This document shows positions 54,219 to 61,285 of a DNA stretch of 64,000 bases, one piece after another (the first letter of the stretch is position 1; each line of letters opens with the position of its first letter). The stretch comes from Halomonas sp. HL-93 (GTDB taxonomy: Bacteria; Pseudomonadota; Gammaproteobacteria; Pseudomonadales; Halomonadaceae): contig NZ_LT593974.1 of assembly GCF_900086985.1 (NCBI RefSeq), forward strand, positions 1,550,001 to 1,614,000, given 5' to 3'. Below the pieces are notes generated by a model. The model saw only the letters and a program-made list of their open reading frames with translations, had not been told where the DNA came from and ran no database searches. The position numbers and the translations under genes were made by a program.

Positions 54219-54740
54219 ATGACCACTCATCACCTAACGCGCGCTGCTTTGGCCGCTGCTCTGATCACCTCTTTCAGTCACGCCGCCCTGGCCGAAACGC
54301 CGGCGGACGTCCAGGTACCGGACGGTAACAACATTGTGCTCGAGACCGTCGGTGTCGGCGCGATTACCTACATGTGTGAAGCCAATGATGACGGCGACAT
54401 GGGTTGGGTTTTCAAGGGCCCGCACGCCGCCCTTAACGACGGTGAAGGCAGCCAGGTCGGCAGCTACTACGGCCCGCCTGCAACCTGGGAAGCATTGGAT
54501 GGTTCTAAAGTCACCGGTACCCAGTTGGCAACCGCCGCCAACGGTGATGGCAACATTCCGCTGCAGCTTGTGGCAGCCAACCCCGCTGAGGGCGAAGGCG
54601 CCATGACCGGCGTCAGCTACATTCAGCGCCTGAACACCCAGGGCGGTGTTGCGCCGGATGTGGCCTGCGATATGGATCATGAAGGCGCGACCGCCGTGGT
54701 CACCTATCAGGCGGACTACATCTTCTGGACGGCTGAGTAA
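54219..54740 (+). CDS. DUF3455 family secreted protein
   Basis: A 173-residue exported protein, DUF3455 by its pattern: signal peptide (about 1-25, cleaved near ALAETPADV), VPDGNNIVLETVGVGAITYMCE, then GPHAALNDGEGSQVGSYYGPPATWE and YIQRLNTQGG. Two Cys (in YMCE and VACD) could form a disulfide. Function unknown; in other proteobacteria DUF3455 genes commonly neighbour ECF sigma factors, as here, suggesting it is a target of that factor. AAGGAG precedes the ATG. Confidence 0.88.
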   Translation: MTTHHLTRAALAAALITSFSHAALAETPADVQVPDGNNIVLETVGVGAITYMCEANDDGDMGWVFKGPHAALNDGEGSQVGSYYGPPATWEALDGSKVTGTQLATAANGDGNIPLQLVAANPAEGEGAMTGVSYIQRLNTQGGVAPDVACDMDHEGATAVVTYQADYIFWTAE

Positions 54741-54849
54741 GTCAACGAGAGCGCTTATGCCGCAGGGGGCTCGTTTGTCGGGTCCCTTGCGGCTATGCTG
54801 TCTGTGGAAACGACGACCGGCGTCGGTGCCGTCACCTGGGAGCCAGGGT

Positions 54850-55413
54850 TTGACTGACGTGTCTTCAGAATTTGATCATGCGGATGCATTGTTGAGATGC
54901 GCCCGTGGCGAGCATGACGCCTTGCACCAGCTCTACGTGTACGAAGGGGCCAGGCTTCTTGGTGTGGTGTTAAGAATCGTCAAGGACCGGGGCATGGCTG
55001 AGGATATCGTTCACGATGCCTGTCTCAATATTTGGCAACGCGCCAGTAGTTTCGACCCTGATAAAGGATCCGCACGAACATGGATATTTAGCGTGGCGCG
55101 CCACCTAGCGTTAAACGCTATTCGTTACCGTAATCGTGAAGTCACCTTTGATAGTCACGACCCGGAAGACGACGACCAAGACGAGCGCTTCCAGCATGCA
55201 TCAGTGGCTGAAGACGCCTTTGATTGGCAAACCGGCCAGCGTATCGATGAATGCCTTCGGCAGTTAGAAACCGAGCGCCGCAATTGCGTGCTGCATGCCT
55301 ATGTTGATGGCTTGAGCCACGCTGAAATTGCCGCGCATACCGGCACGCCGCTGGGCACCGTCAAAGCCTGGATTAAACGCAGTCTGCTGCGCCTACGGGA
55401 GTGCATGGCATGA
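54850..55413 (+). CDS. ECF-type RNA polymerase sigma factor
   Basis: An ECF sigma factor. Region 2 (RCARGEHDALHQLYVYEGARL ... AEDIVHDACLNIWQRA) and region 4 (RRNCVLHAYVDGLSHAEIAAHTGTPLGTVKAWIKR) are clear. I start it at TTG 54850, with GGGAG seven bases upstream (187 residues); GTG 54859 is an alternative, and the open frame to 54646 is antisense or overlapping with the DUF3455 gene. Its stop overlaps the next gene (ATGA), which codes for the likely anti-sigma partner. The group resembles the SigK/RskA pair of sigma factors. Confidence 0.88.
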   Translation: MTDVSSEFDHADALLRCARGEHDALHQLYVYEGARLLGVVLRIVKDRGMAEDIVHDACLNIWQRASSFDPDKGSARTWIFSVARHLALNAIRYRNREVTFDSHDPEDDDQDERFQHASVAEDAFDWQTGQRIDECLRQLETERRNCVLHAYVDGLSHAEIAAHTGTPLGTVKAWIKRSLLRLRECMA

Positions 55414-56141
55414 CCCGCCCCAGTCAGCACGCACACGAAGACGACCATGCCTTGGCGGGTGAATACGTACTGGGCACGCTGTCGTCAGAGCAGCGCAAAG
55501 CCTTAGAAGCGCGGTTACCCAACGACCCGGCATTGCAAAAAGCCGTGATGGCTTGGGAAGAGCGTTTCTTTCCCTATACCGCTATCACCGACCCGGTAAC
55601 GCCTTCCGATTATTTATGGCCACGTATTGAACGCAGCATTGCGTCACGTGAAGCGTTTGCTAAGCGTACCCATCCTGTCGTACCGCCAAAACCCCGCCGC
55701 ATGCTGCATAGCTTAACGCTTTGGCGCGGCGCTGCCGGGTTTGGCTTAGCGGCGGCGTTGGTGATGGGTGTGATGCTGGCAAATGAACAGACTACATCGA
55801 CGACGCCCGAGTACATGGTGGTGTTGCTGGCGCCCCAAAGCCAGTCCGCCGGGTGGGTGGTCCAGGCCTCAACCCGCCAGGAAATTGAGCTGATTCCGCT
55901 GGGCACCTTTGAAGTGCCGGAGGGCAAAGCGCTGGAGTTCTGGACCAAAGCCGATGAGTGGCAGGCGCCGGTGTCGCTTGGACTGGTGGAGCCCGGGGAG
56001 CCGATCCGTGTGCGCCTGGATGAGCTGCCGCCGCTTGAGGATAACCAACTCTTCGAGCTCACTCTGGAAGACGAGAGTGGCTCGCCCACAGGATTGCCGA
56101 CGGGCCCCATTCAGTTCATTGGCCGTGCGGTAGAAATCTAG
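55410..56141 (+). CDS. Anti-sigma factor (RskA-like)
   Basis: A 243-residue membrane-anchored anti-sigma factor. N-terminal cytosolic zinc-less anti-sigma region (ALAGEYVLGTLSSEQRKALEAR, WEERFFPYTA), one membrane span (about 107-124, AAGFGLAAALVMGVMLAN), and an extracytoplasmic C-terminal RskA-type domain (LGTFEVPEGKALEFWTK ... VSLGLVEPGEPI). The ATG at 55410 overlaps the sigma stop by four; an earlier start at 55401/55404 adds only three residues. It should hold the sigma factor inactive at the membrane until a signal is seen outside. Confidence 0.87.
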   Translation: MTRPSQHAHEDDHALAGEYVLGTLSSEQRKALEARLPNDPALQKAVMAWEERFFPYTAITDPVTPSDYLWPRIERSIASREAFAKRTHPVVPPKPRRMLHSLTLWRGAAGFGLAAALVMGVMLANEQTTSTTPEYMVVLLAPQSQSAGWVVQASTRQEIELIPLGTFEVPEGKALEFWTKADEWQAPVSLGLVEPGEPIRVRLDELPPLEDNQLFELTLEDESGSPTGLPTGPIQFIGRAVEI

Positions 56142-56173: not shown

Positions 56174-57547
56174 CTAGAAGAACGTCAGCCCCACCTGGAA
56201 GAGGCGCTCCACATCGCGGATGCGCCGCTTGTCGATGACGAACAGAATCACGTGGTCGCCGCTTTCGATGACGATGTGGTCGTGGGCGATCATGACCTCC
56301 TTGCCGCGCACGATCGCCCCGATGGTGGTGCCGTCGGGCAGGTCGATCTCGCGAATGGGGCGGCCGACCACCTTGGACGACTGCTTGTCGCCGTGGGCGA
56401 TGGCTTCAATGGCCTCCGCCGCGCCCCGGCGCAGCGAGTGGACGTTGACGATATCGCCACGCCGCACGTGGGTCAGCAGGCTGCCGATGGTCGCCTGCTG
56501 GGGCGAAATGGCGATGTCGATCTCGCCGCCCTGGACCAGGTCCACGTAGGCGGCGTTGTTGATCAGCGTCAGTACCTTTTTGGCGCCCAGGCGCTTGGCC
56601 AGCAGCGACGACATGATGTTGACCTCGTCGTCGTTGGTCAGCGCGCAGAAAATATCGCAGTCTTCGATGTTCTCTTCTTCCAGCAGCCGCTTGCTGGTGG
56701 CGCTGCCGTGGAGCACCACGGTGCGATCGAGCCGCTCGGACAGCGTGGTGCAGCGCTCCAGGCTGTGCTCGATGATCTTGACCTGGTGGCTGTGCTCTAG
56801 GTGCTCGGCCAGCCGCTCGCCGATATTGCCGCCCCCGGCGATCACTACCCGGCGGAAGTCCCGCTCGACCCGGCGCAGTTCGCTCATCACCGCGCGGATA
56901 TCGCGCCGGGCGGCGAGGAAAAATACCTCGTCGTCGGCTTCGATGACGGTATCGCCGCGCGGAATGATCGGCCGGTTGCGGCGGTAGATCGCCGCCACTC
57001 GGGTGTCCACGTTGGGCATGTGGCGGCGTAGAAAGGCCAGGTCCTGGCCGACCAGCGGGCCGCCGTAAAACGCTTTCACCGCCACCAATTGGACGAGCCC
57101 ACCGGCAAACTCCAGCACCTGCAGCGCGCCGGGGTGTTCGATCAGCCGGCGCACGTGGTCGGTGACCACCTGCTCGGGGCTGATCAGCACGTCGATGGGA
57201 ATCGCCTCGTGGGCGAACAGCCCCTTGCGGGTCAGGTATGCCGAGGAGCGCACCCGGGCGATCTTGGTCGGGGTGCGAAACAGGGTGTGCGCGACCTGGC
57301 AGGCGATCATGTTGATTTCATCGCTGCTGGTCACGGCAATCAGCATGTCGGCGTCTTCCCCGCCCGCCTGGCGCAGCACGATGGGGTAAGAGCCCGCGCC
57401 GGTGACCGTGCGGATGTCGAGCTTGGTGTGCAGCTCGCGCAGTTTCTTGGCATCGGTATCGACGACGGTGATGTCGTTTTCCTCACGGGCGAGATATTCC
57501 GCAAGGGTGCCGCCGACCTGGCCGGCGCCGAGAATGATGATTTTCAT
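56174..57547 (-). CDS. trkA: Trk potassium uptake protein TrkA
   Basis: The cytosolic NAD/NADH-binding regulatory subunit of Trk K+ uptake. 457 residues, the usual length, with two RCK (Rossmann plus TrkA-C) repeats: [13 protein letters not shown] at the start and [13 protein letters not shown] at about 236. It follows the kdpE-like regulator in a 4-base overlap (57544-57547). It comes last in trkH-kdpD'-kdpE-trkA. Ends 32 bases before the convergent anti-sigma gene. Confidence 0.95.
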
Positions 57548-58263
57548 GGGGTGTATTCCTCTCGGTCTGGCTCAAAGGCCAAGCGGTAGCCAATCCCCGG
57601 TTCGGTCTGCAAAATGCTGGGGGACTGGGGGTCGTCGCCTAATTTTTGACGTAGTTTGCTGATGATAATGCGCAGGTAGTGGGTATCGTCCTGGTGGCTG
57701 GGCCCCCAAATATCACGCAGCAGCTGGGTTTGCGTAATCACGCGGCCGGCCTGGGAGACGAGTGGTGCGAGCACCGCAAATTCCTTCGGCGTTAAGTGCA
57801 CGGACGTTCCATTGACGCTGACCTGATAGGTCGTCAAATCAATCCTCAGGCCGCCGTGTTGGTAACGCCCTTCGCGACTGCCCTGTGTCTGGCGGCGCAA
57901 CAGCGCGCGAATACGTGCCAGCAGTTCCTGAATGCCAAACGGCTTGGTGACATAGTCATTGGCGCCGCTGTCGAGGGCGCGTACTTTTTCAGCCTCATGC
58001 CCGCGAACCGATACGACAATGACGGGCACCTGGTGATGCTCACGAATGGCACTGAGTACCTGCTGACCGTCCATATCCGGCAAGCCAAGGTCGAGGAGGA
58101 CAAGGTCATAGCGCGTGGGGCCGGCGCCAAGTCGTGCCAGCCCTTCATGACCGGTCGCCGCTTCGGTCACCGCAAAATTCTGTGATGTCAGGCTGATGCG
58201 TAAAAAATGACGGATCTGGGGTTCATCATCGATAACCAGTATCCGGTGATGGTCAGTCGTCAT
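57544..58263 (-). CDS. KdpE-like response regulator (OmpR family)
   Basis: A 239-residue OmpR/PhoB-type regulator: receiver domain with the acidic pair DDEP, phospho-acceptor Asp58 in LLDLGLPD, Lys107 in YVTKPFG; then a winged-helix DNA-binding domain (about 135-235) with [14 protein letters not shown]. The KdpE-like character is in the receiver ([25 protein letters not shown]). The ATG at 58263 is chosen because the upstream part overlaps the kinase gene in another frame. It overlaps the kinase end by 11 bases and trkA by 4. In E. coli KdpE activates kdpFABC; no kdp transporter is in this window. Confidence 0.92.
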
Positions 58264-59383
58264 GGGGTGGCTCCTGATGGGGCGGGGGTAGAGGGAGCGA
58301 CATCTCCATGCAGGTGCCCAGGCCATCGGGGCCGTCACAGGCACTGATGCGTCCGCCGTGGGCGCCTAGCATTGCCTGGCAAATGGCCAGGCCCAGTCCG
58401 CTGCCATGGGGGCCACGATCACCGTCGCTGCCGGTCACGAACATATCAAAGACACGCTCGCGCAGGTCAGCGGCAATGCCTGGTCCCTGGTCGGTGATGG
58501 AAAATATCAGCTGTGACGAACCGGGCGGCACCTCGGCACGTATGGCGATCTGCCCGCCAGGCGGGGAGAATCGCGCCGCGTTGTCGAGGACGTTGACCAG
58601 CGCCTGCTCGATGAGTGCCGGATGGACGTAGAGCAGCGGTAAGTCGCCAGGCCATTGCTGAACGATATGGCAATGCGCGAGGGCACTGCCGAGACGTTTG
58701 CGGGCCGACACCACCAGGTCGTCGAAGGCGATCCAGTCACGCTCGATTTTTAAATCGCCGTGGCCCAGGCGGGTCATGTCCAGCAGGTTCTGGATATAGC
58801 GGTTTAGCCGCTCGCTTTCGCTCAATACACTGTCCAGCAGCGCGAAACGATCTTCCTGGCTAAGTTGAGCGTCCAGCGTGCGTAAGGAGCTGGTGGCGCC
58901 AATAATAGACGCCAGCGGCGTACGAAAATCATGGGAGACCGATGACAGCAGCGCCGAACGTAAACGCTCGCGGTCTTCGGCCAGGCGCGCTGCATTCAGG
59001 TCCAGCAACCGCTGGCGACTGTCCCCTGCAAGCTTACCGACCACCAACGCGACCAGGAGAAAAAACAATAGCGTGACGAGCTGTTCCCTTTCTTCGACGG
59101 CCAGGGAAAAGTGCGGCACCGTGAAGCAGAAGTTAAAGGTCAGAAAGCCCAGCACGGCGCTGATAAGCGCTGCCGAACTGCCCGCCATGACGGCGCTTGC
59201 CAGCACCGCTGTCAAAAAAATCAGTGAAAGATTGGCCAGCGCCATCCAGGCGTATAGACCCCAGGCGACAAGTAGCGCGACAAGGGTTGTGATCAGTGCC
59301 GTGGCTACCTCGCGCAGAGTTGGCCAACGCAAGCGTTGCGCAAACCGTGGGAGGCGATAAAGCAGGAGAGTCATCAATGACAT
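58253..59383 (-). CDS. Short KdpD-like sensor histidine kinase lacking the N-terminal KdpD/USP domains
   Basis: A 376-residue kinase against about 890 for KdpD. It begins directly with a DUF4118-type four-span membrane domain (about 27-120), goes straight to the H-box with His151 (SSVSHDFRTPLASIIGA), N-box Asn268 (NVLDNAARFSPPGG), DQGPGI (298-303) and GSGLGL. The N-terminal KdpD sensor, the USP domain and the GAF domain of E. coli KdpD are absent. ATG 59383 has AGGT about seven bases before it. It lies 23 bases after trkH and overlaps the response regulator, so it is a Trk-linked signalling pair. What it senses is unknown. Confidence 0.9.
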   Translation of the reverse strand: MSLMTLLLYRLPRFAQRLRWPTLREVATALITTLVALLVAWGLYAWMALANLSLIFLTAVLASAVMAGSSAALISAVLGFLTFNFCFTVPHFSLAVEEREQLVTLLFFLLVALVVGKLAGDSRQRLLDLNAARLAEDRERLRSALLSSVSHDFRTPLASIIGATSSLRTLDAQLSQEDRFALLDSVLSESERLNRYIQNLLDMTRLGHGDLKIERDWIAFDDLVVSARKRLGSALAHCHIVQQWPGDLPLLYVHPALIEQALVNVLDNAARFSPPGGQIAIRAEVPPGSSQLIFSITDQGPGIAADLRERVFDMFVTGSDGDRGPHGSGLGLAICQAMLGAHGGRISACDGPDGLGTCMEMSLPLPPPHQEPPHDD

Positions 59384-59406
59384 GGGTGACCTATCGTTGG
59401 CTTACG

Positions 59407-60897
59407 CTAGCGTCGCCAGAACATCGGCGTCAGTAGCACAATGACGGTAAGAATTTCTAACCGACCCATTAACATGCCGATACACAGTAGCCATTTGGCA
59501 GCGTCGGGCAGGGAAGCAAAATTACCGGCTGGGCCGATAATGTCGCCAAGACCGGGCCCCACATTGGTCACCGCCGTAGCGGCACCGGATAGGGATGTCA
59601 CAAGATCGAGGCCCAGGGCTGACAGACCCAGCGCCAATGCTGCGATGGTGATAAAAAAGAAGAATGAAAAGGCAACCACGCTGCGGGAAATGTCGCTGGT
59701 CACTATCTGTTCGTTATAGCGAGTAGTGAAGACCCCGTTGGCATGAATCAGGTAGCGGAGCTGGTCACGCAGCATCAGCATGGCAATCTGGAAACGAAAA
59801 ATTTTCATGCCGCCGCTGGTGGAGCCGCTGCATCCGCCCACAAAGGTCAGGTAGAAAAACGCGACAATGGCCAGTGCGCCCCATTGCGTATAATCATCCG
59901 AGGCATAACCGGTGGTCGTGACAATGGATACGACGTTGAAGGTGACGTGGGTAAGCGATTCGAACCCCGCGGCGCCATTCATGATCCGCCAAAGAGTGAG
60001 CAGACCAATCGCTATGCATAGCACGCCCAGTAGCCCCCGAACCTGCTGATCTTTCCATAGGCTGCTGCGAGAACCGCGCAGAAAGCGGATATAAAGCACG
60101 AACGGTAACGCCCCGCTGAGCATAAACAGACTGGCCATCCAGAGTATCCACGGCTGATCGGCATAGGCACCAAACGAAGCGTCTGAATTCGCGAAACCGC
60201 CGGTTGAAAGCGACGTCATGCCGTGAACGATGGCATCTAATGGATCCATGCCGCCTAGCCAATAGCTCAGCATGGCAATCAGCGTCATCACCACATAGAT
60301 ACTCAGCGTTGCCTTGGCGATCCCCCCGGTACGCGGCATGACCTTGTCCGACCAGTCGGACGATTCCGTATGGAAAAGCCGCATCCCGCCGACTTTCAGA
60401 AACGGCAGGATGGCGATCCCCATGACGATAATGCCGATACCCCCCATCCATTGCATGATCCCCCGCCAGAGCTTGAGCCCGTCGGAAAGATCCTCAATGC
60501 CCACCAGTATCGTCGAGCCGGTCGTGGTGATGGCAGACACTGACTCAAAGACGGCGTTGGTAAAGGTGAGTTGTGGGGCGCCAAGCACCAGCGGAAGGCT
60601 GGCAAAGCCACTGATGCTGACCCAGCTCGCAGCCGTCAGGATAAACATCTGCCAGGGTTTCAGTTCGAGGGTGGCGCGATAGGTAAGCAGCCAGGCGGTT
60701 GCCACAGCGGCAAGCACCAGCAGTACCGACACCCCAAAGGCCAATGCATCAGGGTCGCGTTCGGCCAACAGCACCGTTAGCGGTACCATCATGAATAACG
60801 CAAGGATAAGCCAAAGCACCGATAGCACTTTGACTACGGGCGCCCACTGACGGTAGGCGTATCGGCTGCGGTAAACCCATGGCGTTAGGTAATGCAT
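59407..60897 (-). CDS. trkH: Trk potassium uptake protein TrkH
   Basis: The K+ channel-like inner membrane subunit of Trk. 496 residues with ten or more spans and the four P-loop filter sites: TTTGSTIL, SLSTGGFAN, VTTTGYAS and AVTNVGPGLGD. The N-terminus and length fit the TrkH/TrkI group of halomonads. First gene of trkH-kdpD'-kdpE-trkA on the minus strand. Halomonads use Trk as a main K+ uptake route for osmoadaptation. Confidence 0.93.
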   Translation of the reverse strand: MHYLTPWVYRSRYAYRQWAPVVKVLSVLWLILALFMMVPLTVLLAERDPDALAFGVSVLLVLAAVATAWLLTYRATLELKPWQMFILTAASWVSISGFASLPLVLGAPQLTFTNAVFESVSAITTTGSTILVGIEDLSDGLKLWRGIMQWMGGIGIIVMGIAILPFLKVGGMRLFHTESSDWSDKVMPRTGGIAKATLSIYVVMTLIAMLSYWLGGMDPLDAIVHGMTSLSTGGFANSDASFGAYADQPWILWMASLFMLSGALPFVLYIRFLRGSRSSLWKDQQVRGLLGVLCIAIGLLTLWRIMNGAAGFESLTHVTFNVVSIVTTTGYASDDYTQWGALAIVAFFYLTFVGGCSGSTSGGMKIFRFQIAMLMLRDQLRYLIHANGVFTTRYNEQIVTSDISRSVVAFSFFFFITIAALALGLSALGLDLVTSLSGAATAVTNVGPGLGDIIGPAGNFASLPDAAKWLLCIGMLMGRLEILTVIVLLTPMFWRR

Positions 60898-61252
60898 TGC
60901 TTAGCTCGCTAGTTAATCGTTTTTAGCATGGCTCATCACATCACGAACGCGTATAAAAAGTCCGTAAAAAACGTCATGTATTTCTATTGTTTCGTCGTGA
61001 CACGAGCCAGCTTTAACTGTCACTTTTGGATGATGTAAAGGCTGCCTGCGTCGCGAGTTTCATCGCGGTGGATCATGGAGGCGAATTGCAGACCGGGGAT
61101 ACGTAGGTCGGTGCGATCTGGCATCTTCAGGCGTGTTACTTGGCATGTTTCGAGGAGCTAAATCGCCTCGCGCATACAAAGCGCAGCCGCGGCTAGTCGT
61201 TATGCAACCGTGCAGAACCATAATAGAGTTAAGGTAACGCTCGAAGAATTTT

Positions 61253-61285
61253 TGTAGTAAAATTACACGCAATATTGCGTATAAT
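61253..61285 (+). promoter_or_regulatory. HexR-like site and -10 element of zwf
   Basis: TGTAGTAAAATTACA (61253-61267), an interrupted palindrome fitting the HexR consensus, followed by a perfect TATAAT at 61280-61285. No good -35 hexamer is spaced properly from it, so HexR bound here would cover the -35 region. It is 87 bases from the zwf start. HexR is the known regulator of zwf and eda operons. Confidence 0.72.

Follow-up and report, generated by a model that had tools for sequence, protein, structure and literature searches.

The stretch of DNA analysed here, referred to as the window, covers 64,000 nucleotides of the Halomonas sp. HL-93 genome. On its minus strand, from 60897 to 56174, it carries four genes in the order trkH2, kinase, regulator and trkA2 with gaps of 23, −11 and −4 bases; re-reading of the sequence matched exactly the gene order, coordinates and gaps of a preliminary description of the locus. 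The −11 overlap follows from taking the ATG at 58263 as the regulator start (a mechanical list of open reading frames has a GTG at 58344). Judged by their spacing, the four genes probably form one transcript. The features are:

60952..60970, minus strand: predicted operator, KdpE-type tandem box TTTTTACG-GAC-TTTTTATA, 54 bp 5' of the trkH2 ATG
59407..60897, minus strand: trkH2, second TrkH-type K+ channel subunit, 496 aa (Pfam TrkH, 194 bits, above cut-off)
58253..59383, minus strand: short KdpD-type histidine kinase, 376 aa (Pfam; KdpD as best NCBIfam model; kinase tree)
59009..59305, minus strand: DUF4118 four-helix membrane domain, kinase residues 27-125 (Pfam; AlphaFold model)
58757..58960, minus strand: HisKA domain, kinase residues 142-209, with conserved His151 (Pfam; alignment)
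58286..58618, minus strand: HATPase_c domain, kinase residues 256-366 (Pfam)
57544..58263, minus strand: KdpE-type OmpR-family response regulator, 239 aa (Pfam; KdpE as best NCBIfam model)
56174..57547, minus strand: trkA2, TrkA ring subunit, 457 aa (Pfam; NCBIfam; 450/457 residues as in trkA1)

Both the TrkH channel and the TrkA protein of a Trk system are present in the operon, as shown by Pfam and NCBIfam. The NCBIfam TrkH models match trkH2, all below cut-off, and its product is 39% identical to the other TrkH of the genome. Upstream, zwf lies divergently; downstream, a convergent gene for an anti-sigma protein with an RskA_C domain occupies 55401-56141. Beside the latter, within 54646-56141, is an open reading frame that resembles an ECF sigma factor by eye, and both adjoin the operon in many relatives too.

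The whole genome (one contig, 4.14 Mb) was searched for further potassium genes. It contains two TrkH and two full-length TrkA proteins, with the housekeeping Trk locus arranged as fmt-rsmB-trkA1-trkH1. The KdpDE-type pair does lie inside a trk operon, as first described, and this operon is more precisely a second Trk system beside the housekeeping one; as shown below, it also occupies a conserved slot at which several different cassettes occur. DUF4118 gave a single match in the 4.14 Mb, the operon kinase, and neither KdpA nor the KdpD N-domain gave any. Judged by KdpA, the absence of the KdpFABC pump, previously noted at the locus, extends to the entire genome, and there is no full-length KdpD that might be paired with it elsewhere.

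The 376-aa kinase consists of DUF4118, HisKA and HATPase_c only, with no Pfam match to the KdpD N-terminal ATP-binding domain (PF02702), USP or GAF. When aligned to E. coli KdpD, the short kinases are missing approximately residues 1-380 and 505-648, in agreement with the earlier view of a KdpD-like kinase without the N-terminal KdpD/USP half and the GAF part. Its best NCBIfam model is KdpD (193 bits, far under the cut-off of 1123, because most of the model is missing), and KdpD is also its best solved relative by sequence. That the protein joins a DUF4118 membrane domain to a kinase core of KdpD type is shown by Pfam, by this best though sub-threshold model and by the kinase tree. Foldseek with the AlphaFold model of the kinase (moderate confidence; mean pLDDT 71.5, pTM 0.48) returned ordinary kinase cores. 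The model has a single helix from residue 97 to 169, running from TM4 through the DHp, with block confidences of ~53-75. Arginines R123, R125, R133, R140 and R142, which follow TM4, are kept in 9/9 short kinases aligned.

What such a kinase could sense may be judged from E. coli KdpD, in which TM4 and R503-R511 have been named as the site of K+ sensing, a role also claimed for the C-terminal domain (PMC2714519). The preliminary description held that the kinase must sense through its membrane domain alone. In that wording the claim is not supported, as the kinase core is kept and so is a stretch rich in arginine behind TM4. According to the same source, several truncated E. coli KdpDs answer K+ limitation yet fail to repress at higher K+, the phosphatase is deregulated when a truncation takes in the N-terminal Walker motif, and KdpD without USP gives lower expression under salt stress. 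Taken together with the kept arginines and the helix model, the E. coli truncation results therefore lead us to expect a K+-responsive kinase with a weaker shut-off, which may suit a transporter working at higher K+.

The regulator likewise has KdpE as its best NCBIfam model (221.5 bits, not reaching the cut-off of 325), and 101 of 224 aligned residues (45%) are identical to E. coli KdpE. The DNA contacts of the E. coli protein include R193, R200 and T215 (PMC3264566), and the alignment places the same residues at these positions in the regulator, itself a protein of the OmpR type.

To place the operon in its family, 275 Halomonadaceae genomes were searched with PF13493; 112 had a match above the cut-off, and 80 regions were fetched from 79 of these and typed with protein probes. 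Besides the window, 20 loci have a short kinase, all in the order trkH2, kinase, regulator, trkA2 (trkA2 runs into a contig end in four). Another 17 have an inverted kdpABC-kdpDE beside trkH2, with trkA2 on the far side in 15 and none in L102 and L144. The inverted cassettes at the trkH2-trkA2 slot are those of L093, L102, L111, L115-L119, L121-L124, L127, L130, L135, L141 and L144. Two loci (L134, L140) are in line, trkH2 being followed by kdpABC-kdpDE and trkA2. A mid type (n = 18; L112, L143 and L148 among them) shares with the window the trkH2-KdpD-KdpE order, the lack of kdpABC and the box before trkH2, but differs in its ~670-aa kinase, which has no KdpD domain and retains USP and GAF. 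Here trkA2 or a piece of it follows in 10 loci and was not found in the fetched stretch of the other eight; in one mid-type locus, a 66-residue match (L113:6267-6464) is all that remains of trkA2. The remaining regions have kdpABC-kdpDE without trkH2 (n = 13), other arrangements (n = 9) or a contig end (n = 1, L094). Among 11 loci compared, the nine with the same kinase come from named relatives in Halomonas and Vreelandella, and the other two have distant kinases (27% identity). Regulatory and pump cassettes take turns at the trkH2-trkA2 slot from one related species to the next.

The domain content of KdpD varies with these types. Against E. coli KdpD, the full forms are complete and the mid-length forms lack approximately residues 1-225. 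KdpA is absent from 21/21 short-kinase and 18/18 mid-length genomes, and present in 5/5 genomes with kdpABC at the locus. Every KdpD with kdpABC at the fetched locus has the N-domain (31/31), compared to only 3/47 of those without kdpABC (44/47 lack it), although the tree offers only 2-3 informative independent pairs for this link (sign test p 0.25). The exceptions, L096, L103 and L152, are full-length KdpDs, and no KdpA was found in those genomes.

The predicted operator was first spotted by eye as a tandem box and then counted. In E. coli, the half-sites of KdpE read TTTATA and TTTACA and are spaced 5 bp apart (PMC3264566); the window box is TTTACG-N5-TTTATA at 60968-60952. A degenerate pattern, TTTTACRNNNTTTTTA, written after seeing the trkH2 promoters, occurs once in 4.14 Mb, exactly at the trkH2 box, while a reversed control gave none (exact matches in both cases). 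With one mismatch allowed, TTTTTACRNNNTTTTTA has one match in the window against 0.01 expected. Exact TTTTTACRNNNTTTTTA lies within 220 bp of trkH2 in the window, in 18/20 short and in 12/18 mid loci, and also before trkH2 in 5/16 inverted and 0/2 in-line loci; an altered box with two mismatches is present in 11/16 inverted and 2/20 short loci (L123 was left out of the count for its short upstream piece). The background for exact TTTTTACRNNNTTTTTA was 0.35% of 6000 random pieces from the same loci, true sites included. The box is therefore not tied to the short pair, being exact in some inverted-kdp loci too. Tandems also precede kdpA, with 0-3 mismatches in 13/13 kdp loci without trkH2 and 1-2 in the 17 inverted loci.

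The published E. coli half-sites served as an independent pattern. At up to one mismatch, this was found in 13/20 short, 2/18 mid and 5/16 inverted loci, compared to 2/5000 random pieces (0.04%) and 0/309 AT-rich pieces, and the trkH2 box was the only such site in the 64 kb of the window. At two mismatches the pattern says little, because it matches 17/20 zwf upstream pieces as well as 16/18 mid loci, and 7% of AT-rich random pieces. A de novo motif search in 12 stand-alone kdp promoters gave a downstream element of CATCGAATTTTTACGCC type; this second kdp-promoter element is missing before trkH2, and a promoter scan gave no sigma-70 match there. A separate sequence, TTTGTAGTAAAATTACA, lies before zwf at 61251-61267; a similar one, TGTAATTTTACTACA, recurs upstream in several relatives and is perhaps the site of another regulator.

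The kinase alignment and tree (79 rows) left out L087 and L093, which have broken frames, and L094, which is at a contig end. In this tree the kinases from the trkH2 slot, 56 in number, all fall into a single clade (SH-aLRT 99). Inside it the short kinases (20 rows) form one clade with a support of 100; the inverted ones (16 rows) also form a single clade with a support of 100. The kinase of L096, beside trkH2 but pointing away, falls outside the slot clade. These values deserve less trust, since the tree was built quickly and has long branches (E. coli, L152, L142). Short and inverted types are intermixed in the trees of trkH2 and zwf, and on both the window's sister is L127, a species with a full inverted kdp cassette. 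The number of changes needed between the two types was eight on the trkH2 tree (at least five on starred branches) and five on the zwf tree (at least three). The simplest reading would be that cassettes have been exchanged between species at a fixed slot; old coexistence of the cassette types followed by loss would be an alternative history. Repeated decay of inverted kdp loci into short ones was considered and set aside, as each type is one clade on the kinase tree yet requires those several changes on the trkH2 and zwf trees.

The two trkA genes (trkA2, 56174-57547; trkA1, L183:4441-5814) have a history of their own. TrkA1 and TrkA2 differ in 7/457 residues and their DNA is 89.5% identical, the similarity ending at the start and stop codons. 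In a first set, each genome's two copies pair with each other (7/7). A second set of 31 genomes (30 valid; G176 was excluded, as the operon copy picked had 8% protein identity) gave 17 within-genome cherries, and copy labels changed 26 times on the tree versus 21 in shuffles; the 60-bp flanks of the copies were not alike. The window's copies do not form a cherry in this set because the operon copy joins both copies of G274. This concerted evolution of trkA1 and trkA2 fits repeated gene conversion inside the coding sequence. Two draft assemblies have both trkA copies interrupted at identical codons, the pattern expected of collapsed repeats. At 0.88, the GC3 of trkA2 exceeds that of trkA1 (0.77) and of its operon neighbours (0.65-0.70).

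Among 369 genomes drawn from the whole class, 61 had DUF4118 at E ≤ 1e-8, three of them from the Halomonadaceae, and 28 regions were fetched. Three loci from other gamma-proteobacterial families (L187, L188 and L189) have a 498-545-aa kinase that starts at or near the membrane domain, together with a regulator. Kinase and regulator are divergent from trkH, and trkA then follows in L187 and L189; no KdpA was found in the three genomes. For the E. coli-type site, L187 has a perfect match between the genes, nearer the kinase, the best in L189 has two mismatches, and L188 has none. The pairing of a trimmed KdpDE with Trk has probably evolved on more than one occasion.

Set beside known systems, the window's pair shares with E. 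coli KdpDE the DUF4118 domain, the arginines after TM4, the HisKA-HATPase core, an OmpR-type regulator and tandem T-rich half-sites 5 bp apart. Unlike E. coli KdpDE, it lacks the KdpD ATP-binding domain, USP and GAF, has no KdpA in its genome and lies inside a trk operon. Halomonas elongata (TrkH and TrkI with TrkA) has two Trk channels (PMC5231179), and thus resembles HL-93 in having a second TrkH-type channel beside the housekeeping one; in contrast, the trkH2 operon brings its own sensor pair and its own trkA. Kushneria konosiri is reported to have two copies each of TrkA and TrkH and a single KdpD and KdpE (PMC6167781), a gene set that perhaps reflects the same arrangement. The titles and abstract openings retrieved in a literature search did not name a trk operon with KdpDE.

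What does a KdpDE-type pair do in a Trk operon? The best reading is that KdpDE has been re-targeted from Kdp to Trk: it appears that the sensor pair, whose usual job is to turn on an emergency K+ pump, was kept, the pump lost, KdpD trimmed to its membrane and kinase parts, and the pair put over Trk, an ordinary uptake system. The self-regulated module proposed in the preliminary description is likely because a KdpDE-type pair lies in the Trk operon, there is no KdpA and a KdpE-type box precedes trkH2, all of which was read from sequence. We therefore consider it probable that the operon is an autoregulated K+ uptake unit in which a pair of the KdpFABC type now serves the Trk genes around it. 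Using its kinase core and four-helix membrane domain, the shortened KdpD would detect salt stress or a lack of K+ and then phosphorylate the KdpE-like regulator. Once phosphorylated, the regulator would bind the tandem box before trkH2 and, activating rather than repressing, raise TrkH2, TrkA2 and the sensor pair together. TrkH2 would presumably transport K+, and TrkA2, being nearly identical to TrkA1, would probably add to a gating-ring protein common to both TrkH channels.

Other explanations have to be weighed against this. The pair could be co-transcribed with trk and have other targets, the box being bound by another regulator or by none. The box does precede trkH2 also where the full inverted kdpABC-KdpDE is present, and T-rich sites with two mismatches are not rare in AT-rich upstream pieces; we nevertheless think this unlikely, since the exact pattern occurs nowhere else in the genome (exact matches only) and the trkH2 box resembles those before kdp operons. 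The loss of three cytoplasmic domains, and the deregulated phosphatase of the E. coli truncations that include the Walker motif, might instead point to a pair that represses or tunes trk in response to a cue other than K+ (Na+, membrane tension or an envelope signal, for instance). We give this little credence, as the short kinases share a conserved DUF4118 domain and conserved arginines behind TM4.

That the operon is a decaying, functionless remnant of a kdp locus seems very improbable. Domains and kdpABC are indeed missing, and the kinase frame is broken in two of the 20 other short loci (L087 and L091), but these two genomes are 74% and 80% complete, and in one of them zwf and trkA are broken as well. 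In the other 18, as in the window, the short kinase has an intact frame, and the catalytic motifs are conserved over many species. This speaks against a frameshifted kinase remnant, a prospect that the preliminary description had raised.

Returning to re-targeting of KdpDE from Kdp to Trk, we put forward a tentative suggestion with some doubt: the N-terminal KdpD/USP half may be a pump module that gives shut-off at moderate K+, as befits a pump of high affinity, and was shed on re-targeting to Trk, whose working range lies at higher K+, moving the set point up. If this is true, the trkH2-trkA2 slot of the Halomonadaceae would be a natural swap experiment in set point and transporter.

New here are the KdpE-type box, the alternative cassettes at the slot, the link between N-domain and kdpABC, and the homogenisation of trkA. 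The signal sensed by KdpD and the role of its large N-terminal half are a long-running question. At one locus, related species offer a graded series, from full KdpD with the pump, through KdpD without both N-domain and pump, to a membrane-kinase KdpD in a Trk operon, and the role of each domain is therefore directly testable. The trkA pair is in addition a clear case of gene conversion keeping two copies alike. For halophiles, the operon suggests a route by which K+ uptake may be placed under KdpDE control without Kdp.
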